Positions 4,487 to 29,261 of a DNA stretch of 52,595 bases are shown here, piece after piece. Under the pieces are notes generated by a model. The model had not been told where the DNA came from. It did no database searches and worked only from the letters and a program-made list of their open reading frames with translations. The stretch is taken from the IMG/VR virus record IMGVR_UViG_3300020438_002387, positions 1-52,595 of that record; one strand, written 5' to 3'. Source of the stretch: a virus. How positions within the stretch are numbered: the first letter of the stretch is position 1; each line of letters opens with the position of its first letter. Made by a program: the position numbers and the translations under genes.

Positions 4487-5176
4487 ATGAGTAAAAGTAA
4501 AGAGATAAAAGCCCGTTTGCAACAAGCAGACAAACGCTTCTGGGCTGGCGACAACATTTCAGACTTTATTAAAGACGGCGAAAAGCAAGTACTAATTGAC
4601 GAGCTTGCTGATAAGTTTGAAGACGTATTACAAGGTCTTGTAATAGATACAGAAAACGATCCTAACAGTAACGGTACAGGTAAACGTCTTGCAAAGATGT
4701 ATATCAATGAACTAATGGCAGGACGTTATGAACCAATGCCTCCAGCAACAGCATTTCCAAATGATAGCGATGATCGTTATGAAGGTATGTTAGTTGTGCG
4801 TAGTGAACTTACAAGTATGTGTTCACATCATCATCAGATTGTTAGAGGTGTAGCATACATTGGTATTATTGCATCAGACAAACTGATTGGTTTAAGTAAG
4901 TATACACGTATTGCACAATGGTGTGCTATGCGAGGTACACTACAAGAAGAACTTGCAAACGACATTGTACGTGAGATTCAAAAAGCAACTGGTGCAGAAC
5001 ATTTGGGTGTCTATGTACAAGCAACACACGGTTGTGTTGAAAACAGAGGTGTAAAGGCACACAGTAGTCTTACACAAACAACTGTTTTAAAAGGTGCGTT
5101 TAAAGATGACGCAGGTACAAAGAAAGAGTTCATGGACAATATTAAACTCCAACAAGAATTTGCATGTGGGAAGTAG
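4487..5176 (+). CDS. folE: GTP cyclohydrolase I (FolE)
   Basis: FolE converts GTP to 7,8-dihydroneopterin triphosphate, the first step of both folate and 7-deazaguanine (queuosine, preQ0) synthesis. The 229-aa product has the zinc-site segment SMCSHHHQIVRG with C112 and H114/H115, the KLIGLSKYTRI segment (132-142), a QEEL helix, and ATHGCVENRGVKAH (179-192) with H181 and the second zinc Cys C183. Length is slightly over the usual 180-220. It is the first gene behind a consensus promoter and three bases upstream of queE, so the two are one unit. A phage copy would boost deazapurine or folate flux during infection. Confidence 0.92.
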   Translation: MSKSKEIKARLQQADKRFWAGDNISDFIKDGEKQVLIDELADKFEDVLQGLVIDTENDPNSNGTGKRLAKMYINELMAGRYEPMPPATAFPNDSDDRYEGMLVVRSELTSMCSHHHQIVRGVAYIGIIASDKLIGLSKYTRIAQWCAMRGTLQEELANDIVREIQKATGAEHLGVYVQATHGCVENRGVKAHSSLTQTTVLKGAFKDDAGTKKEFMDNIKLQQEFACGK

Positions 5177-5179
5177 AGT

Positions 5180-6073
5180 ATGAAACTTAGATATTCAGAA
5201 GCGTTTTATAGCGTACAAGGCGAAGGCAAGTTTGTAGGAGTACCTAGTGTATTCCTACGCACCTTCGGTTGTAACTTCCGTTGCATGAATTTTGGTGTAG
5301 ATACTAAAAAGAATCGCACAGAGTTACATGCAGAAGGACAACGATACAATCAAGAAGTAGCAGATTTAATTGCTAAAGATGTGCATAAGACTACAGAAAA
5401 GTTTGAAGACTTACCTATCATACACACAGGATGTGATACATATGCAAGTATCTATCCTGAGTTTAAACACTTTAATAGACAAGCAACTGTAGACGAAGTT
5501 GTAGAACATTTGCTTTCACTCACTCCTAACGGTAAGTGGGTACAAGATAATGGACAAGATGTCCATTTGATTATGACAGGCGGTGAACCGTTGTTAGCGT
5601 GGCAACGACTTTACGTAGAGCTATTTGAACATCCACGTATGCAGGATTTAAAAAATGTTACATTTGAAACAAATACTACACAAGTACTCAAAGATGATTT
5701 CTACGAGTATCTCGAATCTCAAGATAGATTTACAGTCACTTGGAGTTGTTCCCCAAAACTTAGTGTTAGCGGAGAACCTTGGGAAACTGCTATTAAACCT
5801 GATATTGCTAGTCAGTATATCAGTGTTAACGGTAGTGACATGTATCTTAAGTTTGTTGTCGCTACTCAAGATGACTTTAACGAAGTTGAAAGGGCTGTTA
5901 GTGCTTATCAGAGTGCCGGGGTACAATGTCCAGTATATCTTATGCCGTTGGGTGGACGCAGTGAAGAATACGCCCTCAATGTTAAGGACGTGGCAGAAGC
6001 GTGTATGGAAAAAGGATGGCGATTTACCCCAAGGCTCCACATATCCTTATTCGGAAATGCATGGGGTACTTAA
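5180..6073 (+). CDS. queE: 7-carboxy-7-deazaguanine synthase-like radical SAM protein (QueE)
   Basis: QueE rearranges 6-carboxy-tetrahydropterin to 7-carboxy-7-deazaguanine. The 297-aa product begins with the family signature EAFYSVQGEGKFVGVPSVFLR (7-27, with the SVQGEG core), followed by GCNFRC at 30-35, a TGGEPLLAW SAM-binding segment (about 133-141) and late strands (KFVVAT, VYLMPLGG). The cluster motif is odd: C31-x3-C35 is followed by MNF, so the third Cys of C-x3-C-x2-C is missing. The only obvious substitute is C85 in HTGCDTY after a long insertion. This may be a variant cluster loop as in some phage QueE proteins. Longer than the usual 210-240 aa enzymes. Overlaps the next small gene. 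Confidence 0.82.
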   Translation: MKLRYSEAFYSVQGEGKFVGVPSVFLRTFGCNFRCMNFGVDTKKNRTELHAEGQRYNQEVADLIAKDVHKTTEKFEDLPIIHTGCDTYASIYPEFKHFNRQATVDEVVEHLLSLTPNGKWVQDNGQDVHLIMTGGEPLLAWQRLYVELFEHPRMQDLKNVTFETNTTQVLKDDFYEYLESQDRFTVTWSCSPKLSVSGEPWETAIKPDIASQYISVNGSDMYLKFVVATQDDFNEVERAVSAYQSAGVQCPVYLMPLGGRSEEYALNVKDVAEACMEKGWRFTPRLHISLFGNAWGT

Positions 6074-14112: not shown

Positions 14113-15207
14113 ATGGCACTACGTCTAAGACGCGGAACTGAAAGCGAACGTCAGAACTTAGTAACACCTTTATCGGAAGGTGAACTTATATATGTAACCG
14201 ATACAGGAAAACTGTTCATCGGTAATGGCACGGCAACCGGCGGCGTTGAAGTTATCGGCAGCGGCGGAGGTGGTGGCGCTACTACACTAGATGCATTAAC
14301 CGATACTGATTTAACAGGTTTTACAGACGGTGATGTACTAACATACATCGCAGCATCAAATAAGTGGGAGCCAATTCCAGTTCCTGGTGCTAGTGCAATT
14401 GGAATAAACGATCTTACTGACGTTGATATTACACCAAGTGCTTTGGATATGTTAATATATGACGGTTATAACTTTGTTACAGTTCCAGTACAAACAATCT
14501 TTCAAGAACAACAAAACTGGAGAGTAAATATTGTTGGTGACGACTCGACTATACTAGTTGATACGGACACTAATAGTTTTAGAGGTACATTATTCGGTAC
14601 CGTAGAAGGTGATATAAAAGGTAGTATATTTGGCGACGATAGTACATTATTAGTAGATGCTGTAAGCAATAAGATTAGTGCAAATAGTGTGCTTTCGTCT
14701 ATCGTAGACACAGGTTTAATATATGGATCGCCGCCAGAGCGCGAAGACGGATTAAGAATTTTTATACCTAATGGTTCGTCACTCAATGTTGTTTCACACA
14801 ACGGAGCACCTGAGGAGCCTACAGCAACATCCCCAGGAGACTTTATTTCATCAATTTCGCTACTAGGTACAACTGATACTTCAACTTCTAAAGTAGCAGG
14901 AGCAATAATTTCACAATGGGACGCCACAGCAGATTTAAACACAGATTATCCTAGAGGGAATATCTTCTTTGCTGTAGGACAAAACAGTAATGATCCTAAT
15001 CTTGTTGCAGAACTTGATTACACTGGAAACTTTACTTCTAAATCTATATCGCCTGGAACTTATGCAGATGCTGCTGCACGTGATGCCGCAATTGCATCCC
15101 CAGTTGCGGGTATGATGGTATTCTTAACAGACGGCGATGGTGCAGGAAATCCTAAGTTTCAAGGAAATACAGACGGAACAATAACAGGATGGGTAAATCT
15201 AAATTAA
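14113..15207 (+). CDS. Tail fibre / adhesin-like structural protein
   Basis: The 364-aa protein opens with LRLRRGTESERQ then PLSEGELIYVTDTGKLFIG (18-36) and GNGTATGGVEV, the short domain that starts many phage fibres and hyaluronidase-like proteins (Mtd N-terminal type, virion anchor). A Gly-rich linker (SGGGGGATT, 51-59) follows. The rest is repetitive strand-rich sequence, including two related FGTVEGDIKGSIFGDDST-type repeats near 160-180. The C-terminal block (PGTYADAAARDAAIASPVAG) is typical of late fibre domains. It begins behind a late motif and shares a base with the next gene (TAATG), linking the fibre to the enzyme island. Confidence 0.8.
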   Translation: MALRLRRGTESERQNLVTPLSEGELIYVTDTGKLFIGNGTATGGVEVIGSGGGGGATTLDALTDTDLTGFTDGDVLTYIAASNKWEPIPVPGASAIGINDLTDVDITPSALDMLIYDGYNFVTVPVQTIFQEQQNWRVNIVGDDSTILVDTDTNSFRGTLFGTVEGDIKGSIFGDDSTLLVDAVSNKISANSVLSSIVDTGLIYGSPPEREDGLRIFIPNGSSLNVVSHNGAPEEPTATSPGDFISSISLLGTTDTSTSKVAGAIISQWDATADLNTDYPRGNIFFAVGQNSNDPNLVAELDYTGNFTSKSISPGTYADAAARDAAIASPVAGMMVFLTDGDGAGNPKFQGNTDGTITGWVNLN

Positions 15208-15953
15208 TGCTGAGAGGTATATTAGGACACCCCTATTTAGATTTATATAGTTACGTAGACTTAACATCTTTTGATAAGCTACACTCTGAAATATGCAGAG
15301 CATTTGTACTAGGTAAAAACTTTGCAGGCAACGGCAATTTACAACTAGAAAAGTACGATCAAGAAAACGTCAACCTAGATGCATACAATGGCGATATAAG
15401 TCCGGTTTGGCTAATGTATGAAAAATACTTAAAGCTATCTAACGATGATCCTATTAAGGTTGCAGGAGAAGGATTAAACGAAGAACAACTTATTCTATAC
15501 ATAAAATATGCATTTGGTGCATACAACCCGTGGCATGTTTATAATGTGTTTGATAAAATAGATGAAAAAAGAGTTCTTTCTCCGATACATCACCTTTTCC
15601 CTAACCTAATAACTTGGATAGACAATCTTGATATTTTTTCAAATGTTACAAGAGCATATTTTCTTTTAATAGAACAAGATGGTATATCTGTTGAACATTG
15701 TGATCCTTCCCCGCATCCAGATATACCTAGAGAATTTATACACATAAAATCTTGCGACAGCAGACCGTTTTATGTAAGAGAGTATAAAAATTCAGAAAAG
15801 ATTTATATGAATTCTAGAGTTACATATTTTAATGATCAAGATTGGCATGGTGGAGAAGCGTCTAAAAAAACTACCTATTCATTACGTATCGACGGAATTT
15901 TTACAGAGACATTTCGAAAGCAATTGAAAGGCAAAGCTGGTGCAATACGGTAA
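15207..15953 (+). CDS. Large 2OG-Fe(II) oxygenase-like protein, copy 1
   Basis: An ATG at 15189 is in frame, but 15207 (MLRGILGHPY) aligns with the start of the paralogue at 23841 (MIKGINGKPY) and gives TAATG coupling to the fibre gene. The 248-aa product has H164-C-D166, a FIHIKS strand, NSRVTYFNDQDWHGGE with H214, and R227 in YSLRIDG. HxD...H plus a late Arg is the metal and 2-oxoglutarate set of the cupin-type oxygenases. The N-terminal 130 residues are helical and family-specific. First gene of the island; substrate unknown, the adjacent fibre protein being one candidate. Confidence 0.65.
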   Translation: MLRGILGHPYLDLYSYVDLTSFDKLHSEICRAFVLGKNFAGNGNLQLEKYDQENVNLDAYNGDISPVWLMYEKYLKLSNDDPIKVAGEGLNEEQLILYIKYAFGAYNPWHVYNVFDKIDEKRVLSPIHHLFPNLITWIDNLDIFSNVTRAYFLLIEQDGISVEHCDPSPHPDIPREFIHIKSCDSRPFYVREYKNSEKIYMNSRVTYFNDQDWHGGEASKKTTYSLRIDGIFTETFRKQLKGKAGAIR

Positions 15954-16434
15954 AAGAATTGAAATTAATAATTTAAAAGAAATACAACAAGAATTAATTA
16001 ATTATAATTTTTTTAAGGCAGTACCAGACCTTGAAAGTTTTAATGGACCTTTAAAAAAGAATTCGACTTCTGGTATTACATTTTCTACCCTGCCTAACTT
16101 ACCAAAACTTAAAGAATTTTTAGAATCAACTGTAAACACAAATCTTATAACACATTTTCATATAATAAATATAGGACCAATGGAGCACAGTCCTATACAT
16201 CATGATGACGACGATGCTCCTTGGGGATTAAATATTCCTATTTTAAATTGCGAATATTCTAATACAATCTGGTACGATGACAACGATAACGAACTTGAGC
16301 GTATATGTTTAGATACTGTACATTTTTTGAATACTGTTGCTATGCATCAGGTACTTAATCACTGTGATGAAAATAGACTAGCTATGTCTATTAGATTTGC
16401 AGGTACACACGATCTAGATAAAATTATAAAATGA
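15940..16434 (+). CDS. Small 2OG/cupin-type oxygenase-like protein (GTG start)
   Basis: The GTG at 15940 overlaps the previous gene by 14 bases. The 164-aa protein has an acidic metal-site region SPIHHDDDDAPWG (84-96) with H88-x-D90, a strand LNIPILNCEYS, a WYDDNDNE turn, H136 in AMHQVLNH, and R146 or R152 in ENRLAMSIRF. This is the core fold of aspartyl/prolyl hydroxylase-like oxygenases, with the distal His and Arg in order. It differs from the larger neighbour in length and in lacking the N-terminal domain. Substrate unknown. Confidence 0.6.
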   Translation: MQYGKRIEINNLKEIQQELINYNFFKAVPDLESFNGPLKKNSTSGITFSTLPNLPKLKEFLESTVNTNLITHFHIINIGPMEHSPIHHDDDDAPWGLNIPILNCEYSNTIWYDDNDNELERICLDTVHFLNTVAMHQVLNHCDENRLAMSIRFAGTHDLDKIIK

Positions 16435-16991
16435 GTATCTATAAAATAATTTGTACAGGCAATCCACACAAACCCGGAATAGCAAAATCTGTATTTGAAC
16501 GTTTTCCTAATACAACTTTTTTACATTTATCTAATGGTTATGATCTAACATCATTAGATGGACAGAATAAATTTAAGTCTATTATAAAAAATTATAATGT
16601 TTTCATCAATGTTTCTCAATTAAAAGATAATTTTCAAGAACAACTTCTTAAAATAGCACACAAAGAAAGTATGACTGGACATGTGTTTAATATAGGAAGT
16701 ATTGCAGAATATAAAAGATGGGAATGGTATAATTCAGCATACACTGAAGAAAAAAGAAGTCTACGTGAAACTAGCTTAGATTTATGCACCCAATACTTTA
16801 AAACAACTCACATTGTTGCCGGAGGGTTTCAAGACTCGACTTCAACAGATTCGTCTAGAATGGACCCAATAAAAATTGTTCAAATAATAGAGTTTATTTT
16901 AAACCTTGATATAAATATTCCTATAATAGGAATTGAAAAGATAATTGATAAGGAATTAGCTGAACAATTAAAAGGAAAAACACAATGGTAA
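16431..16991 (+). CDS. Short-chain dehydrogenase/reductase-like protein
   Basis: A 186-aa protein, shorter than the usual 240-260 SDR. It has a TG-x5-G element at the N-terminus (ICTGNPHKPGIAK, 7-19), NVS at 60-62 where the NAG motif is expected, S90 in FNIGSIAE, and Y104-x3-K108 (YTEEK), the catalytic pair. The order and spacing match an SDR with loss of part of the second half of the Rossmann fold. It would oxidise or reduce a hydroxyl or keto group with NAD(P). It sits between two oxygenase genes with four- and seven-base overlaps, so it likely acts on the same molecule. Confidence 0.65.
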   Translation: MSIYKIICTGNPHKPGIAKSVFERFPNTTFLHLSNGYDLTSLDGQNKFKSIIKNYNVFINVSQLKDNFQEQLLKIAHKESMTGHVFNIGSIAEYKRWEWYNSAYTEEKRSLRETSLDLCTQYFKTTHIVAGGFQDSTSTDSSRMDPIKIVQIIEFILNLDINIPIIGIEKIIDKELAEQLKGKTQW

Positions 16992-17842
16992 AATACAAGT
17001 TACACGAAAACGGATGGACTGTGTTGCTCGAGGACTTTGACTTTTGCTTGGCTACACAAGAAGATATAAACGATATTGCAAAATTAGTTGCTACTAACAC
17101 ATGCGTGGTTTGTAAAAATCAAAATTTAAGTACTCAAGACGAAGTTAGAATTGTTAAAATGTTTAAAGATCCTCAATACTTTGACACACGTAACGAAAAT
17201 TCTACAGATAATATGTTTAGAGGAGCAGAAGTTGATGGATCAGAAAATATAATATTAAGAGTATCAGCTGAAAAAGACGAGGAAGGTTTAACTGGAATTG
17301 CCGGGCATGATAGCGAAATGCAGTGGCATGCTAATGATCAAACAACACCGGAGAGAAAATCTATAGTATGGCTATATTCTGTTAAAGGTAGCAAAGGTTC
17401 TAGAACAACTTATAACAATAATATAATGTCATACGAACATTTAGATATTGAAAAAAGAAAAATTCTCGAAAACCTAAAACTTACTATTTTACAAAACGTG
17501 TCTCTTAGAGAAGACGAGGATGACGGAGCTGCTAAAATTGAAAACTATACTCCAAATTTAGTTGTAGAAAATATTGCAGGGAAACGAGGATTTTATTTTC
17601 CTTTTTTACAAATATCTGGCTTTGAAGGACTAACAGAGGAAGAAAGTAAAGAAATAATTAATTGGTTATCTGAGTACACTACGCAAGAAAAATTTTGTTA
17701 TCATCACGATTGGGACGATGGTGATGTTGTAATTGCAGAACAATGGCTAGGTATACACAAGCGGTGGCCTTTTAATCTTGTTGAAGACAGACTGCTTCAT
17801 CGAATTGCATTTGATTTTCCTGATCAAGATTATAAATCTTAA
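16985..17842 (+). CDS. TauD/TfdA-like 2OG oxygenase with HxN metal motif, copy 1
   Basis: The 285-aa protein has the TauD-type order: HENGWTVLLEDFDF start, VVCKNQNLS, LRVSAEK, the metal site QWHAND (113-118), WLYSVKG, the distal H258 in WLGIHKRW and R269/R273 in DRLLHRIAFDFP. The first metal pair reads H115-A-N117, with Asn where Asp or Glu is expected. The paralogue at 21942 has the same HAN, so it is not a sequencing error. Asn could alter chemistry or mean an inactive fold. Its stop overlaps the stop of the opposite-strand gene at 17839-17842. Fe and 2OG binding are inferred. Confidence 0.75.
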   Translation: MVKYKLHENGWTVLLEDFDFCLATQEDINDIAKLVATNTCVVCKNQNLSTQDEVRIVKMFKDPQYFDTRNENSTDNMFRGAEVDGSENIILRVSAEKDEEGLTGIAGHDSEMQWHANDQTTPERKSIVWLYSVKGSKGSRTTYNNNIMSYEHLDIEKRKILENLKLTILQNVSLREDEDDGAAKIENYTPNLVVENIAGKRGFYFPFLQISGFEGLTEEESKEIINWLSEYTTQEKFCYHHDWDDGDVVIAEQWLGIHKRWPFNLVEDRLLHRIAFDFPDQDYKS

Positions 17843-18486
17843 GGCAAGTCGTCTATAACAATATATTTACCGCTAATTTTTTGTGCTTTGGCGGCAGAAT
17901 TCATTAGAGCTTTCCACTTATCTAATCCGTCGTGACGAGCTATAATTATATGCATTCTGTCTTCGTTACTGTTGTTTACTACGCTATGATCATAATGTAA
18001 ATTCATAGCATAGACTCCGCCTTGTTCCATTATTAATTCTTCTCCGTCTCCCCAGATCCATTTACATCCTTGCGGATTATTTAAAGCAACATTAATATTT
18101 TCAATAAGTTTCATACTAGAGTCATTATGCATTTCTATCTTACCGCCGGCTCTAAGTAGCATAAATCTAACCCTGCCGTATTTGTTACACGGAAAAACTT
18201 CTTTAAGCCATTTAGTTGTTACGGGACATTTGTCTGCTATTTCTGTCCATATATAATCATTACTAGCATCTTTGCCTTGCTTATATCCATATGCATCAAA
18301 GTTTTCATGCTTGTCTGCACCTAGTCCATGTATAGTTAAACTTTCCCATCCGTTATGTCCATATTCGCTTCCCCTATGTGGCGTAAAGTTATCTAAAAGA
18401 GTAAATGCTTCTTTAAGCATTTGTTCATACGGGATCGAAATATCTAATTTTAAATACTTGCCATCTGATTGAAAGTATTCTCTCAT
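17839..18486 (-). CDS. Aspartyl/asparaginyl hydroxylase-like 2OG oxygenase, copy 1
   Basis: I start it at 18486 (MREYFQSDGK), where ATG overlaps the upstream stop as ATGA; an ATG at 18546 would add 20 residues inside the upstream gene. The 215-aa protein has RVRFMLLRAGGKIEMH then H120-N-D122, NINVALNNPQGCKWIW, GGVYAMNLHYDHSVVNNS with H167, and R177. This matches AspH-type enzymes, here with a carboxylate (HND) where vertebrate AspH has Gly. AspH enzymes hydroxylate Asp or Asn side chains; substrate unknown. Last gene of a minus-strand block starting at 21873. Confidence 0.68.
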   Translation of the reverse strand: MREYFQSDGKYLKLDISIPYEQMLKEAFTLLDNFTPHRGSEYGHNGWESLTIHGLGADKHENFDAYGYKQGKDASNDYIWTEIADKCPVTTKWLKEVFPCNKYGRVRFMLLRAGGKIEMHNDSSMKLIENINVALNNPQGCKWIWGDGEELIMEQGGVYAMNLHYDHSVVNNSNEDRMHIIIARHDGLDKWKALMNSAAKAQKISGKYIVIDDLP

Positions 18487-19913
18487 GTTAAAATCTTTAC
18501 TTGATGTGTCATTGGGCAGTAGCTTTTCCAATCGTGTTCTTGCCATGGTGGTGCATTAAATTCGTTTATATCCCATAAATTAAAATCTTTAACTTTTCCA
18601 AAATTTATTTCATCTTTATTACAATAGAAGTCTCCTAATCTAGAAGGTATAAACAGCCAGATATTTTCATCAATATTTTTTAATGTGTCTATTAAGTTAT
18701 TTTCTCTTGCTACTCGATATTTAACATTTGCTGAATTTACATATGGTATATGATTAAAAACATCACTAACATTGACGAATGTATTTTTATTAGGTTCTAA
18801 AAAATTATATGTATTAGGAGCAAAATAATCTAATAATTTATAATCAAATTTTAATTGTCTAACTTTATTCCAAAGACTTTGAAAATCATCAAAGTTTTGT
18901 TCAAACGAATCCCACCAATCTCTTATTTTTTTCTCATGATTAATTAAATCATAATTATAGCTATCAGGAACAAACTTCATTTGATTCATATAAAATGTTG
19001 CATAATCTTTTCCATCCCATTCTTCTACTAATGACTTCATAAAACTAAGTACCGCATAACTTATATCAGTAAATGTAATTTTAGTATTGTTGTGATATCC
19101 CAATGTTAAAAGATTGTGTATCCAATTTAATCCCGTTCCCGTAGTAACATAGTGGTCAACAGGATTTTCTATATTAATGTTCTCTGGTAGAGCATCGCTA
19201 TTCCACGGAGTAACCATTGTATTACATACTAGTGTATAATTAAAAAGTTCTGGAACGTGGCGCAAGTAAACGTGATCATATTCGTAATACAAATAAAACT
19301 TATTAATTCGTATGTCGTCGCCTACATCGCAGAATACAGCATTGTTTTTTAACCCTATATCTATAAAATTCCAGCCATGTCTTTGCTGCGTATAAGTTCT
19401 AGAAGTATTTCCTTGTTCAATCCATACTGGTATTTCGGTATCGCCCCGGACACACTCTTCACTTCTAATTGGTTCTATTTTAGTATGAGTTTTATTCCAA
19501 TCAACATCGCCCATTTCAGGAGACCCTAGTCTCCTATATTCTTCCAAGTTCATAATAAAAAATTGATTATGAATTTCATAATAAGCATCGTTTCGATCTA
19601 GTACATGTCCTGCTAAAGTAAATTGTTCTTTGCATTTTTGTTCAACACTAGAAAATAATCTATCAGACAATCCTAAATGAGTTCCAGTTATAACAACAAC
19701 AGCATGTGTATAAAATTTATCGCTAGCCGCTCTTTTTAATAATTTATCTGTGGAAGTGTCTATTATTATGTCATATCCATTTTGTATTGTTTTTGATAAA
19801 AAGTAATCGCTTACATTTTTAGCAGTTTCTCTAGACGAAGCACTATACTGATTATTAATATTATCAAATATACAATAAACAATTTTATTTTGTTTCTTAA
19901 TTCTATAATCCAT
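18483..19913 (-). CDS. Two-domain protein with methyltransferase-like C-terminal half, 476 aa
   Basis: Residues about 10-140 form an alpha/beta domain (IVYCIFDN, AVVVITGTH, then an aromatic FFIMNLEEYRRLG block) of uncertain type, with some likeness to glycosyltransferases. Residues about 250-305 read VTTGTGLNWI then TKITFTDISYAVLSFMKSL, which fits a class I SAM-methyltransferase Rossmann start: a Gly-rich loop at 258-261 and an acidic residue after the second strand (FTDIS, 281-285). The C-terminal 170 residues are unassigned. It lies one base from the QueC-like gene and overlaps the AspH-like gene. Function unproven. Confidence 0.55.
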   Translation of the reverse strand: MDYRIKKQNKIVYCIFDNINNQYSASSRETAKNVSDYFLSKTIQNGYDIIIDTSTDKLLKRAASDKFYTHAVVVITGTHLGLSDRLFSSVEQKCKEQFTLAGHVLDRNDAYYEIHNQFFIMNLEEYRRLGSPEMGDVDWNKTHTKIEPIRSEECVRGDTEIPVWIEQGNTSRTYTQQRHGWNFIDIGLKNNAVFCDVGDDIRINKFYLYYEYDHVYLRHVPELFNYTLVCNTMVTPWNSDALPENINIENPVDHYVTTGTGLNWIHNLLTLGYHNNTKITFTDISYAVLSFMKSLVEEWDGKDYATFYMNQMKFVPDSYNYDLINHEKKIRDWWDSFEQNFDDFQSLWNKVRQLKFDYKLLDYFAPNTYNFLEPNKNTFVNVSDVFNHIPYVNSANVKYRVARENNLIDTLKNIDENIWLFIPSRLGDFYCNKDEINFGKVKDFNLWDINEFNAPPWQEHDWKSYCPMTHQVKILT

Positions 19914-19914
19914 T

Positions 19915-20649
19915 TTAATTTCCTAATTTATTAAATGCCCACATACGTTCCTCACACCACCAACAAGAACCACAGTGTGAACCAATGTGTTCGTCATTTT
20001 CGCAACTCCTAGTTACTGGAAATAGTGTTTCTGTTACTCCTAAAGAATCATACATCCTTGCTATGTCTTTTTTATTATGATTAAACCATGGTATATATGC
20101 ACGTTCGTCTAATTTTAATTCGTCAACAGGGTTTCCATCAATTGTCAGAGGACATTCTTCTCCAAAATGTGTTGCCTTTTCAACAGGTATTGTAAATCCA
20201 AATAAAGGATGAATTGTATCTTCAGATCTAAATTCATTATGCCAGTCTGGTTGCTGACCATTCCAAGTTTTGTAAACAGTACTCGGAGGAAATTTAGTAA
20301 GCCCCAAATATATTATATCGACTTCGTTTTTATCTAATGCACTAGTTAACATATTAATATAAAATTCTGCAGATTCGTCAGGTTCAACAATTTCTCGATG
20401 TATTACATAATTATTATTTCCAGTCAGTTCTGCACATTTTTCTACAACTGCATAAAAATATTTTTCTAATGCAGGTCTTCTTTTTTCTGCCATCATATTA
20501 TATACATGTACAGTTTCTTTAACATTAGACATCAAAACATATAGCAACAATGCACTATCTGCACCACAACTTACTCCAACGCCAACAGGGCCTTTTTTAT
20601 AAATTCCGATATCGACGTCAGCATTTTTTATATAATCTAAGTTTACCAT
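19915..20649 (-). CDS. QueC-like PP-loop ATPase, copy 1
   Basis: QueC-family enzymes adenylate a carboxylate and add ammonia to give preQ0. The 244-aa protein has the PP-loop S27-C-G-A-D31-S32 (SCGADS for SGGxDS) and a C-terminal zinc site C216, C226, C229, C232 (CGSCWWCEER), the arrangement of QueC. The middle contains EVDIIYLGL and EEC. The first Gly of the loop is replaced by Cys. With FolE and QueE in the window preQ0 synthesis is possible, but a second copy at 28581 and the island context suggest ATP-dependent amidation or a related step on another substrate. Overlaps the next gene by seven bases. Confidence 0.7.
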   Translation of the reverse strand: MVNLDYIKNADVDIGIYKKGPVGVGVSCGADSALLLYVLMSNVKETVHVYNMMAEKRRPALEKYFYAVVEKCAELTGNNNYVIHREIVEPDESAEFYINMLTSALDKNEVDIIYLGLTKFPPSTVYKTWNGQQPDWHNEFRSEDTIHPLFGFTIPVEKATHFGEECPLTIDGNPVDELKLDERAYIPWFNHNKKDIARMYDSLGVTETLFPVTRSCENDEHIGSHCGSCWWCEERMWAFNKLGN

Positions 20650-21197
20650 CTTGTATTCCTATGCAAAACTTCAAAAAATTTGTCTGGGAATATTTCCCAT
20701 ACTGTTTGATTAGTGCCTCTATAAAACACATCTTTTATACGTTTCATTTGTCCTGTTTTTTCCATGGCCGGAGCAAATACTCTATGTACTATTTGTTGTG
20801 TTCCGGCTTCGTTTTCATTAGAAGTTATAAATGCCTTAGCTCCTTTAGGAAGCCATTCTAAACAAGCAGGAATTAAAAATTGTCCTGTTGCGTGTTGGTG
20901 TGTGACAATCTGGTTACGTGTTCGTAAACTAACTAACGGTAATTTATCTGTAAACACACATGTTCTAGCAGCAACTCTAAATGTATTAGGGCCCATTACA
21001 TCGTCAAATGTATGTGCTGCTACACTGCCTACAGCTTCATTATTATAGTATAATATCCAAGTCTGCCATTTATCTTCTTTACGAAAACAATCTACTAGCA
21101 TATGCTGTGACGCATTATTCTCAAAACCCCTACTAGCAGCATCTTTATAAAATTGCTCTAAATCTAACTGTTCGGACCAAGGAATTATTTTATACAT
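20643..21197 (-). CDS. GNAT-like acyltransferase, 184 aa
   Basis: The sequence has a single alpha/beta domain: WQTWILYYNNEAVGSVAAHT (residues about 44-63) resembles the beta2-beta3 region of GNAT enzymes, followed by RVAARTCVFTDKLP, then AKAFITSNENEAGTQQIVHR, where the Gly/Asn-rich turn and helix recall the late GNAT acceptor side. A clear Q/RxxGxG/A acetyl-CoA loop is not visible, so this is a weak assignment. The family occurs in marine phages. It is coupled to both neighbours by seven- or eight-base overlaps. Confidence 0.5.
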   Translation of the reverse strand: MYKIIPWSEQLDLEQFYKDAASRGFENNASQHMLVDCFRKEDKWQTWILYYNNEAVGSVAAHTFDDVMGPNTFRVAARTCVFTDKLPLVSLRTRNQIVTHQHATGQFLIPACLEWLPKGAKAFITSNENEAGTQQIVHRVFAPAMEKTGQMKRIKDVFYRGTNQTVWEIFPDKFFEVLHRNTRW

Positions 21198-21873
21198 TAA
21201 GTGCCTTCTCTATAAAATCTGCCGGATAATTGGTTCTAAAACTATTCCAACATAATTTATCCATAACGTTCCACGGCTGTGGAACATTCCACTCGATGCC
21301 TAACTTTTCTAAATTCTTATGCATTTCGTCTTGTCTTGTGCTATATATATGACTTTCAACATCAACAATACTTACATGAGGCTCATCTTTATGGTATGTA
21401 AAGAAGTAATTCATACTTTTTAGTTTACCATCAACAACAAAGTAACTACTCGGGTGCATACTGTATTTGTGTAGTCCTAAACTCTTATGTGCTTTTATAA
21501 TTTCAAGCATTTGTTCTTGCCAATCAGGTAATACACTGTCATAATTGTGTGTTGTACAGTTTGCTCTATTCCAAAAGTCTTTACCTTCAATTTCTAGATA
21601 GACTTTACGTTCTTGTTCATCTATACTAAAGTTAGGAATATGCTCAGGATAATGCATCTTCATAAGTTTAAGGAATTTTATTTCACGATTAAACTTTTCA
21701 TCCATTAACGCAGGATCAACTACTTGATTTTGTCCTTTATGATATTCACCATCGTTATAATACCATTGTACAAAAGTAGTTAAAGTACTGTTAGCAAGAC
21801 TAGTGTAAATTAAATTATTTCGACATAGTCCTGTACCCGGAATATCATTATAATAATATTGCATTTTGTCCAA
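21190..21873 (-). CDS. Degenerate protein kinase-like protein, copy 1 (TTG start)
   Basis: TTG 21873 is chosen because AGGAGG (21881-21886) lies seven bases upstream; the ATG three codons later would be 16 bases away. The 227-aa protein has a kinase-like small-lobe pattern (RKVYLEIEGKDF) and then HKYSMHPSSYFVVDGKLK followed by SMNYFF, which aligns in layout with the H-R-D-x4-N and DFG loops of phosphotransferases, but the catalytic Asp and the DFG Asp are missing. A paralogue lies at 25655. First gene of its minus-strand block. Possibly a pseudokinase or small-molecule-binding fold. Confidence 0.5.
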   Translation of the reverse strand: MDKMQYYYNDIPGTGLCRNNLIYTSLANSTLTTFVQWYYNDGEYHKGQNQVVDPALMDEKFNREIKFLKLMKMHYPEHIPNFSIDEQERKVYLEIEGKDFWNRANCTTHNYDSVLPDWQEQMLEIIKAHKSLGLHKYSMHPSSYFVVDGKLKSMNYFFTYHKDEPHVSIVDVESHIYSTRQDEMHKNLEKLGIEWNVPQPWNVMDKLCWNSFRTNYPADFIEKALNV

Positions 21874-21941
21874 CTCAATTCCTCCTGTATACTATAATTT
21901 ATCTAATAAATATTTACATAGAGTTAGATATGGAGAATTAA
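21874..21941. promoter_or_regulatory. Divergent promoter region with NATAAATA-type motifs
   Basis: A 68-base gap between diverging genes. On the plus strand AATAAATA at 21905-21912 is a full NATAAATA match, 29 bases before the ATG at 21942 (GGAG ribosome site at about 21932). On the minus strand GATAAATT at 21896-21903 is a one-mismatch version, 22 bases before TTG 21873. The two motifs face apart and are one base from touching. Confidence 0.5.
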
Positions 21942-22796
21942 ATGGATTGCACATTACACGAGAATGGCTGGACAACCATTGTCAACGACTTTGATATTAG
22001 TACAGCTACGCAAGAAGACATAAACAAAATTTGTAAATTAGTAAGTGATACTACCTGTGTAGTATTAAAAAAACAGCCTCAATTAGATCTAGAAACAGAA
22101 CTAAGAATAATTAACATGTTTAAAGACCCATCGCCGCTATTTCATAAAAAAGACGATCACTTTAGACATACAGCAGTAGACCCAGATGGATTAATATGTC
22201 GTGTAACAGCAGAAAAGAATGAAGAAGGAAAAACAGGTATTGGTGCTAATCCTGGCGATTTTGACTGGCATGCAAATGTTACATGGCGAAGAATTAGAGA
22301 ACCTATCATTTGGCTACGTGCAGTTAAAGGAACTGAAGGTTCAACAACTAGCTATAATAACAATGTAATGACATGGAACGACTTGCCTAAGACATTCCAA
22401 GAAAAACTAAAAGATCTAAAATTAATAATTACAGGCGGTAGACGTCATGATGGTTCTCCTATCTCTGCAAGAGAAGACGAAGATCGTGGAGAAAAGTTTA
22501 ATCATCCGCTAGTATATACTAGCCCTCTTACTGGAAAAGTTGGGTTTTATTGCCCTTATTTACAAGTAAGGGGCATTGTAGATATGCCAAGAGAAGAATC
22601 AAACGAACTAATCAAATGGATCGGAGAATATATAACTCAAGAAAAATATGTATACCATCATGATTGGGAGGATGGAGATATTGTTATTGCAGATCAATGG
22701 CACGGCATACACAAACGCTGGAAATTTGTTAATCTAGAAACTAGAGTGTTGCACAGAGCAGCACTATATTACCCAGATCAGGATTATTCTAACTAA
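21942..22796 (+). CDS. TauD/TfdA-like 2OG oxygenase with HxN metal motif, copy 2
   Basis: This 284-aa paralogue of the protein at 16985 shares the LHENGWT start, RVTAEK, DWHAN (108-112), VKGTEGSTTSYNNN, YVYHHDWEDGDIVIADQWHG split around the distal site (H257 in GIHKRW) and R268 in TRVLHRAALYYP. The metal pair is again H110-A-N112. Both copies keep every other TauD hallmark, which argues for a maintained function. First gene of a plus-strand block that continues with a radical SAM gene and two more oxygenases. Substrate unknown. Confidence 0.75.
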   Translation: MDCTLHENGWTTIVNDFDISTATQEDINKICKLVSDTTCVVLKKQPQLDLETELRIINMFKDPSPLFHKKDDHFRHTAVDPDGLICRVTAEKNEEGKTGIGANPGDFDWHANVTWRRIREPIIWLRAVKGTEGSTTSYNNNVMTWNDLPKTFQEKLKDLKLIITGGRRHDGSPISAREDEDRGEKFNHPLVYTSPLTGKVGFYCPYLQVRGIVDMPREESNELIKWIGEYITQEKYVYHHDWEDGDIVIADQWHGIHKRWKFVNLETRVLHRAALYYPDQDYSN

Positions 22797-23848
22797 TGAA
22801 GAATACACTTTCAGTCTGTCATCACTGTTATAGACATGTGCCAGCAATTAAATTTGAAAAAGATAATAGCATCTGGCTGCGTAAAACGTGTCCTGAACAC
22901 GGAGAATCAACACACTTAGTTGAACCAGATGCAGAGTTTTATAATAGCTATAACTACGAGAGACATGCACTAGGAAGTTACTTTATTGAAATTACAAATA
23001 GATGTAATCTAGCTTGTCCTCATTGTTATCAAATGCCTGACAATCAGTCTGTTGATCCTGAAGTTACACGTATAATAGAGGATATTAAGTCTTGGCCCGA
23101 TGACGGATTGCCTATTGCAATTTGCGGCGCAGAGCCGACTACAAGGAAAGACTTACCAGATATTATAAAGAAAATACAAGCACTGCCTGGTAAACCCCGT
23201 AGTTTAATGATTTTAACAAACGGAGTTAACTTATCTAATTATGATTATGCAAAAAAGTTTGCAGAGTTAGAAGGTGTTAGATGGACATTTGGTCTTAATC
23301 ATACTGATTACCAAGGTCCTGTGGTTAGAAAAAAACAAATGCAAGGTATTAAAAATTGTATAGACTTAGGGCTTGTAATTAAAAATATTTCGTATACACT
23401 TTTAAATATGTCTCAGTTAGAAGATTGTATTAACGAATTAGTTGACTTAGGTCAAGGATATTGCGAAGCATACAGAATTAGATGCGGCGCAGATATTGGC
23501 AGAGCTCCAAACGCAAAACAAATTTATTTGTCAGACTTGATGAAAGCAACCGAAGAAATTTGTAAGAAAAATGAATACACTTTTGAAAAATTTAACTATG
23601 GTAATAGAGCACATTACTGTGTAGAGATTAATGGATTACCGGCAAGAATAATACAATGGCCTGATGCAACTACGTTAGATTTAAGCGAAGTACAAACTGA
23701 ATCAATTGCAGATATAATACCTGGAAAGCCTCCTAGTCCACTAGTGCATCAAGTTATACTAAGAGACGGGGCAATAAACAAAGGATTACCTTTACTAGAT
23801 ACAATACCACAAGAGTGGATAGATAACTATGGAGGAATTAATGATTAA
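22796..23848 (+). CDS. Radical SAM enzyme with N-terminal zinc ribbon (MJ0619/Tes-like)
   Basis: The 350-aa protein begins with a ribbon C8-x2-C11 ... C32-P-E-H35 (TCPEHG), then the radical SAM cluster C70-x3-C74-x2-C77 (RCNLACPHCYQ), a modified GEP segment ICGAEP (at about 108-113), and an ILTNGVNL strand. This N-terminal C..C/CPEHG plus radical core is the layout of MJ0619-type C-methylases and of tetraether lipid synthase, which act on unactivated carbons. The shorter C-terminus has no clear SPASM cysteines. It is coupled by TAATG to the HxN oxygenase, so both may act on one substrate. Confidence 0.72.
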   Translation: MKNTLSVCHHCYRHVPAIKFEKDNSIWLRKTCPEHGESTHLVEPDAEFYNSYNYERHALGSYFIEITNRCNLACPHCYQMPDNQSVDPEVTRIIEDIKSWPDDGLPIAICGAEPTTRKDLPDIIKKIQALPGKPRSLMILTNGVNLSNYDYAKKFAELEGVRWTFGLNHTDYQGPVVRKKQMQGIKNCIDLGLVIKNISYTLLNMSQLEDCINELVDLGQGYCEAYRIRCGADIGRAPNAKQIYLSDLMKATEEICKKNEYTFEKFNYGNRAHYCVEINGLPARIIQWPDATTLDLSEVQTESIADIIPGKPPSPLVHQVILRDGAINKGLPLLDTIPQEWIDNYGGIND

Positions 23849-28532: not shown

Positions 28533-28580
28533 ATTTATCAGGACTAAGTTAACTGCACACTTTTCTTGGTAAATATTAAG

Positions 28581-29261
28581 ATGGAACTATACTTAAAGGA
28601 ATCGTGGAGTCGAATAGGCATTAGTCTTAGTGGCGGAGCTGACAGTGCAATACTTGCTTATTTAATATGTAAAAATGTAAGTACAACTACAGATATACAT
28701 TTTACTTCGCAAATACGCTGCTGGAAGACAAGGCCATGGCAAGGTCCTGTTGCCGACGGAGTAATCGATTGGTTTAAAAATAGGTTTGATAATAACTTTA
28801 CAGTACATAAAAACTTGGTGCCGCCCGAATTAGAAGAACCAACCGATTATCTTATTAAAGATGAGTACGGTAAAATGAAATCAGGTAATAGGATTATACT
28901 ACGTTCGCATAACGAATATATTGCACACCAATACAACTTAGATGCATTATACGGTGGCGTAAATATGAATCCAGATATAGATATTCCTGGCAAGGTTGCA
29001 GAACGTGACCAAGGGCATTTACTACCTCATTTTGTACATAACGGGGTTGACATTTGTCATCCTTTCGTGTATACTAAAAAGGATTGGATTATACGGCAGT
29101 ACTACGAAAACAATATCGTAGACTTATTAAATCTTACTCGTAGTTGCGAAGGAGAGTTTGAGGGTTTGGATTATACTACATATATACCAGGACAACATGT
29201 GCCAGAATGTGGAGAATGTTTTTGGTGCAAAGAACGTCAGTGGGGAATAGATAATGTCTAA
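28581..29261 (+). CDS. QueC-like PP-loop ATPase, copy 2
   Basis: ATG 28581 (MELYLKESWS) is preferred over a TTG at 28566. The 226-aa protein has an intact PP-loop S17-G-G-A-D-S22 and a C-terminal zinc site C189, C210, C213, C216 (CGECFWCKER), as in QueC. The middle is unlike the copy at 19915, with an LEEPTDYLIKDEYG insert and LYGGVNMN. The intact loop suggests this copy is catalytically competent. QueC itself makes preQ0; this paralogue may catalyse that or another ATP-dependent ligation. It is the first of three plus-strand genes, followed by two radical SAM genes. Confidence 0.72.
   Translation: MELYLKESWSRIGISLSGGADSAILAYLICKNVSTTTDIHFTSQIRCWKTRPWQGPVADGVIDWFKNRFDNNFTVHKNLVPPELEEPTDYLIKDEYGKMKSGNRIILRSHNEYIAHQYNLDALYGGVNMNPDIDIPGKVAERDQGHLLPHFVHNGVDICHPFVYTKKDWIIRQYYENNIVDLLNLTRSCEGEFEGLDYTTYIPGQHVPECGECFWCKERQWGIDNV

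Follow-up and report, generated by a model that had tools for sequence, protein, structure and literature searches.

TauD-like oxygenases with asparagine at the iron-ligand position in a large family of aquatic phage enzymes

Two TauD-like genes and the surrounding cassette

The window, meaning the whole stretch of DNA analyzed here, is a virus record of 52,595 bases. It contains two genes for TauD-like 2OG oxygenases, called copy 1 and copy 2 below:

16985..17842, + strand: copy 1, TauD-like 2OG oxygenase of 285 aa, HxN...H (H115, N117, H258; T141, R269, R273); ORF list, Pfam TauD, AlphaFold, and Foldseek
17327..17335, + strand: codons of the copy 1 metal motif, H115-A116-N117; sequence and alignment to the HxD of PDB relatives
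21942..22796, + strand: copy 2, TauD-like 2OG oxygenase of 284 aa, HxN...H (H110, N112, H257; R268, R272); ORF list, Pfam TauD, and alignment to copy 1
22269..22277, + strand: codons of the copy 2 metal motif, H110-A111-N112; sequence and alignment to the WHTD/WHAD of 6d0o and 6d3i

Both proteins belong to the TauD/TfdA family (Pfam: PF02668) by homology and fold. They score 68.6 (copy 1) and 90.4 bits (copy 2) with the Pfam profile, for which the cut-off is 27, and are 51% identical to each other, with a gap-free alignment at the motif. The structure prediction proposed for checking the original prediction returned an intact TauD fold for copy 1. This AlphaFold model, built with 90 relatives, has a mean pLDDT of 96, and its best PDB matches found by Foldseek are AAD-2, AAD-1, RdpA, and TauD (TM about 0.75–0.79); the model contains no metal and is read at the level of the fold, not of ligand distances.

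The motifs H115-A-N117 and H110-A-N112 are present as predicted, and the distal His (H258 and H257) and both Arg (R269/R273 and R268/R272) are retained in the two copies. In alignments with 5bke, 5j92, 6d0o, 5hsx, and 6d3i, the Asn of both copies is located on the Asp of WHSD, WHTD, or WHAD; the solved TauD/TfdA enzymes aligned to this site include AAD-2, 5j92, RdpA, and 5hsx. The copies thus share with the TauD/TfdA family (TauD, AAD-1/RdpA, AAD-2, TfdA-like) the fold, the distal His, the 2OG-binding Arg and Thr, and the order of motifs, but differ from it by Asn in the place of the Asp ligand and by an identity of about 15% to the solved members. In addition, the DN preceding the distal His is replaced by EQ or DQ. 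The HxD/E...H facial triad of the 2-His-1-carboxylate class is replaced by HxN...H in both copies, and the residues for 2OG binding (R269, R273, and T141) are invariant in 90 sequences. Judged by their sequences, both copies fall outside the canonical class despite their TauD-like homology and fold; the site is non-canonical and the rest of the proteins is intact, as had been proposed.

Both copies are located at the edge of a gene cassette that is common to dozens of virus contigs and contains from one to four TauD-like copies. The following genes of the window belong to this cassette or adjoin it; the numbers refer to the loci, among the 94 analyzed, in which the corresponding cluster was found:

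14113..15207, + strand: tail-fiber-like gene at the cassette edge; by eye from the N-terminal sequence, without a database match; 32/94 loci
15189..15953, + strand: putative 2OG oxygenase of 254 aa (HCD...H), a recurrent neighbor; by motif, no Pfam match; 44/94 loci
16431..16991, + strand: SDR-like protein immediately before copy 1, the start of which it overlaps; by eye (YxxxK), no Pfam match; 19/94 loci
17839..18546, - strand: Asp_Arg_Hydrox 2OG oxygenase (HND); Pfam PF05118, 6e-13; 52/94 loci
18483..19913, - strand: protein of 476 aa, probable fusion of a GT-A glycosyltransferase and an NNMT-like methyltransferase; AlphaFold pLDDT 90, weak Foldseek matches to LH3, LARGE1, and NNMT; 53/94 loci
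19915..20649, - strand: QueC-like ATP-dependent enzyme; Pfam PF06508, 8e-8; 33/94 loci
20643..21197, - strand: GNAT-like protein of 184 aa; by eye, no Pfam match; 58/94 loci
21190..21873, - strand: kinase-fold-like protein of 227 aa; by eye, no Pfam match; 55/94 loci
22796..23848, + strand: radical SAM protein immediately after copy 2, with an N-terminal zinc ribbon of the HMPTM/Tes type; Pfam PF23545, 2e-15, and PF04055, 1e-12; 40/94 loci

For the 476-aa protein, no match was found over the Pfam cut-off and none in PHROG or NCBIfam; its predicted structure suggests that a GT-A glycosyltransferase is probably joined here to an NNMT-like methyltransferase. A large variable island at the tail-fiber genes, likewise with many radical SAM and glycosyltransferase genes, is known as the host recognition cluster of pelagimyophages and was proposed to alter the host surface; the parts of that paper considered here contain no description of TauD-like HxN enzymes (PMC7029224). 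The cassette might plausibly hydroxylate a surface molecule of the phage or of the host, which would then be decorated further.

Downstream of copy 2, positions 22796-46115 of the window are occupied by an extended series of radical SAM genes (at least nine by eye, four of them confirmed by Pfam); some of these have SPASM domains, and glycosyltransferase-like genes are located between them. QueD-like, FolE-like, QueE-like (by eye), and two QueC-like genes were found at positions 718-1158, 4487-6073, 19915-20649, and 28566-29261. This set could represent a preQ0/deazaguanine pathway that might serve DNA modification, although the QueC-like genes lie within the modification cassette and just one of the two scores above the Pfam cut-off.

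Distribution and history of the HxN motif

In total, 97 distinct relatives of the two copies were gathered from scans of virus contigs and one scan of cellular genomes; nearly all are located on virus contigs. The HxN motif was found in 80 of these proteins, HxD in 16, and HxH in 1. One of the virus-contig scans used two patterns, neither of which contained the HxN triplet. HxN was found in none of the 90 cellular TauD-family proteins drawn from a sample of 61 genomes, in which the motif was read with a profile: 82 of these have HxD, 6 have HxE, 1 truncated protein has HxD, and 1 has YxA. The same holds for the 29 cellular proteins that come closest to the family, which were read by eye: none has HxN and nearly all have HxD, two of them (L264 and L281) being unclear. 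The scan of cellular genomes yielded only two members, L094 (HxH) and L095 (HxN), on contigs that may be phage or cellular. A cellular origin of HxN was rejected on these grounds. Base-composition drift was also ruled out: all nine of the other 2OG-oxygenase-like genes checked in the window retain HxD or HxE, which argues against a general change of Asp to Asn in this AT-rich genome.

The alignment and tree check suggested with the original prediction revealed a large HxN group. A tree of 90 family members and 12 cellular outgroups was calculated with the motif column left out. Most members in it, the basal ones included, are HxN, and HxD is nested in at least three places: one clade with six members, another with eight and an HxN row as its sister, and a single gene (L052:2771). 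A tree uniting all HxD rows is rejected by the AU test (p 2e-52), and HxD copies as a single clade were discarded accordingly. The HxN sister of the second clade (L058:3544-4386) represents either a re-reversion from D to N or a retained N.

HxN was also found in more distant proteins of cultured phages. The SAR11 phage Mosig (Pelagibacter phage) encodes a TauD-like protein with about 24% identity to copy 1 and the motif WHSN; relatives of this protein were found in 42 further virus contigs, and these, together with adjoining paralogs, have HxN wherever the motif is readable. WHSN is also present in the "taurine catabolism dioxygenase" of the Prochlorococcus phages P-HM1 and P-HM2 and in its counterpart in the Prochlorococcus phage MED4-213. 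The P-HM1/P-HM2 protein was named T4-GC447 and has been annotated since 2010; in the parts of that publication considered here, its HxN feature is not mentioned (PMC3037559). These proteins (PHROG 24590) share HxN and the virus-side tree group with the copies of the window, but their length is greater, at about 352 aa, the relationship is distant (E 7e-8 with copy 1), and the P-HM1/P-HM2 genes are located near gp59, outside a cassette of the window type. The TauD-like gene of MED4-213 (L283, HQ634174.1 111602-112671) is recorded as two ORFs, which suggests a frameshift or a sequencing error. The only HxD match in a phage record, from an Acinetobacter "phage" (L252, CAKLQH020000001.1), was set aside: its gene lies in a tauB-tauC-tauD operon and the record looks like host DNA.

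In a broader tree including the Mosig and P-HM groups, a single branch (SH-aLRT 84) sets off the virus side, to which all HxN rows belong, and HxD is nested again. Because HxN is confined to one viral branch with HxD nested inside it, the simplest account of these sequences would be one change of Asp to Asn on the branch into the virus group, followed by several reversions to Asp. The large distances, the long branches at the outgroup, and the moderate SH-aLRT of 84 still allow a second origin of HxN.

Conservation of the site and its possible chemistry

All 90 aligned members share W114, H115, T141, H258, R260, R269, and R273 without exception. Position 117 in this alignment is N in 74 rows (AAT in 55, AAC in 19), D in 15, and H in 1, and never Gly, Ala, or Ser. 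Between close members for which synonymous change can be estimated, dN/dS is approximately 0.03–0.12, which indicates strong purifying selection on the family. By these sequence comparisons, an iron site that is broken by the textbook standard is kept by selection across a large family of aquatic phage enzymes. As for the arrangement of copies, all 21 HxD-bearing loci also contain an HxN copy (DNN, DN, NDN, ND, NNDN, or DND) and HxD alone was found in none, whereas 72 of the 94 loci are HxN-only (52 N, 18 NN, and 2 NNNN); these counts are not independent events, as certain loci overlap within the same contig and L086 contributes a D row from a distant relative.

From sequence, homology, fold prediction, conservation, tree, selection, and gene neighborhood, all of which were computed, we infer iron binding via Asn, catalysis, the type of reaction, and the later decoration of its product. 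Iron would be held in a neutral 2-His-1-Asn site by both His and by Asn117 or Asn112 through its side-chain oxygen, 2OG would be bound via R273/R269 and T141, and a ferryl species would oxidize, most likely hydroxylate, a substrate within the cassette. The new hydroxyl could then be decorated by the glycosyltransferase/methyltransferase of the cassette and its acyltransferase-like partners. We give about an even chance to the reading that both copies are active Fe(II)/2OG oxygenases of this kind in a conserved phage modification cassette by the tail-fiber gene. Lipoxygenase is a non-heme iron enzyme with an Asn ligand. The restriction of position 117 to N or D, their repeated interchange, and the invariance of the other cofactor residues make an Asn that serves the metal more likely than an empty site or a dead protein. 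Since HxD arose again on three or more occasions within the group, N and D appear to fill the same structural slot. Engineered loss of the carboxylate, however, usually kills such enzymes, which counts against an active 2-His-1-Asn site: prolyl 4-hydroxylase D414A/G is inactive, and TauD D101A is inactive without formate (PMC2767507).

The same observations bear on the other explanations. The HxN proteins could be catalytically dead or non-redox, acting as structural or regulatory partners of HxD paralogs or as 2OG sinks, as the loss of a textbook ligand and the presence of HxN copies in every HxD-bearing array, reminiscent of active/inactive pairs, would suggest. The 72 HxN-only loci do not fit a decayed partner of an HxD enzyme, and a dead enzyme would not need the invariant H115, H258, R269, R273, and T141; the loss or drift of several cofactor residues that would be expected of a dead 2OG homolog is absent, only the carboxylate being changed, and dN/dS is low. 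We regard this explanation as quite unlikely. Absence of the carboxylate ligand is shared with the Fe/2OG halogenases (SyrB2, CytC3, WelO5, and BesD), of which the SyrB2 type is described in PMC2767507; here it could admit chloride or another anion for transfer to the substrate radical. Known halogenases have Ala or Gly at this position, though, and none of the 97 relatives does: all have N, D, or, once, H. This result argues against a halogenase-like open site as well as against decay, and neither it nor the several interchanges of N and D lend support to the open coordination site suggested by the original prediction; a residue still directed at the metal would fit them better. Moreover, the bulky Asn is a potential metal ligand itself, and each N-to-D reversion would abolish an anion site, so a halogenase or pseudohalogenase is very improbable. 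The proviso of the original prediction that D118 might be the true ligand fails, as Asp occupies position 118 in just 20 of 74 HxN members and Val is present there in copy 2.

The accompanying rule that assigns Asp/Glu to hydroxylases and Ala/Gly to halogenases describes the known halogenases but is incomplete: human AspH, a 2OG oxygenase of another family, is an active hydroxylase in which iron is held by two His, with a water where the carboxylate would be, and it does not halogenate (PMC13168262); the parts considered here of a further paper also give it as a precedent for hydroxylation without a carboxylate ligand (PMC10947486). By analogy, the HxN enzymes may remain hydroxylases with iron held by two His and with a water held by Asn117 and the second-sphere residue E/D252; the Asn might thus hydrogen-bond a water rather than touch the iron. 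In AspH, the second-sphere D721 stabilizes this water (PMC13168262). At position 252, which precedes the distal His by six residues, Glu is found in 51 of 74 HxN members, whereas the 15 HxD members and the 12 cellular outgroups all have Asp. The next residue (Q253 in copy 1) is Gln in all 74 HxN members and Asn in 11 of 12 outgroups; by spacing it corresponds to Asn311 of VioC, which is located five residues before the distal His and contacts a water bound to that His (PMC11301626). Because of this matching spacing, the region around 252/253 is probably situated just behind the iron site. Against this analogy, 19 HxN members including copy 2 keep Asp at position 252 and 4 have Cys, and AspH itself has no Asn at its site. 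A compensating carboxylate at position 252, clear in the counts, was rejected as a general feature, being absent in copy 2 and non-significant on the tree, where the association of E252 with HxN amounts to only 4–5 independent contrasts; it is a lead only. Altogether, an AspH-like water ligand is rather unlikely. The use of another metal or another oxidant chemistry, with a neutral ligand set tuning the metal potential, would agree with the altered charge of an Asn site and with host waters that may be iron-poor, but the 2OG-binding set is unchanged and nothing positive in its favor was found here; we consider it highly improbable.

Returning to the 2-His-1-Asn reading, the HxN proteins may constitute a natural, functional class of Fe(II)/2OG oxygenases confined to phages, in which a neutral amide took the place of the carboxylate on one occasion and paralogs acting alongside one another regained it on several, possibly with a reaction outcome other than that of the HxD copies. 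This wider proposal falls somewhat short of an even chance, and a non-standard reaction of the HxN enzymes is possible. No description of an HxN or 2-His-1-Asn 2OG enzyme was found in the open-access literature, to which the search extended. With Asn at this site, a large selected phage group would be a third type of exception, and the natural N-to-D reversions in sister genes provide a ready-made comparison of the role of the carboxylate. Since members are carried by cultured phages, the HxN group is experimentally approachable. Besides N and D, a single variant was observed at the site: the sole HxH member (WHTH; L094:3353-4189), on a contig labeled Betaproteobacteria TMED41, could have a 3-His site.
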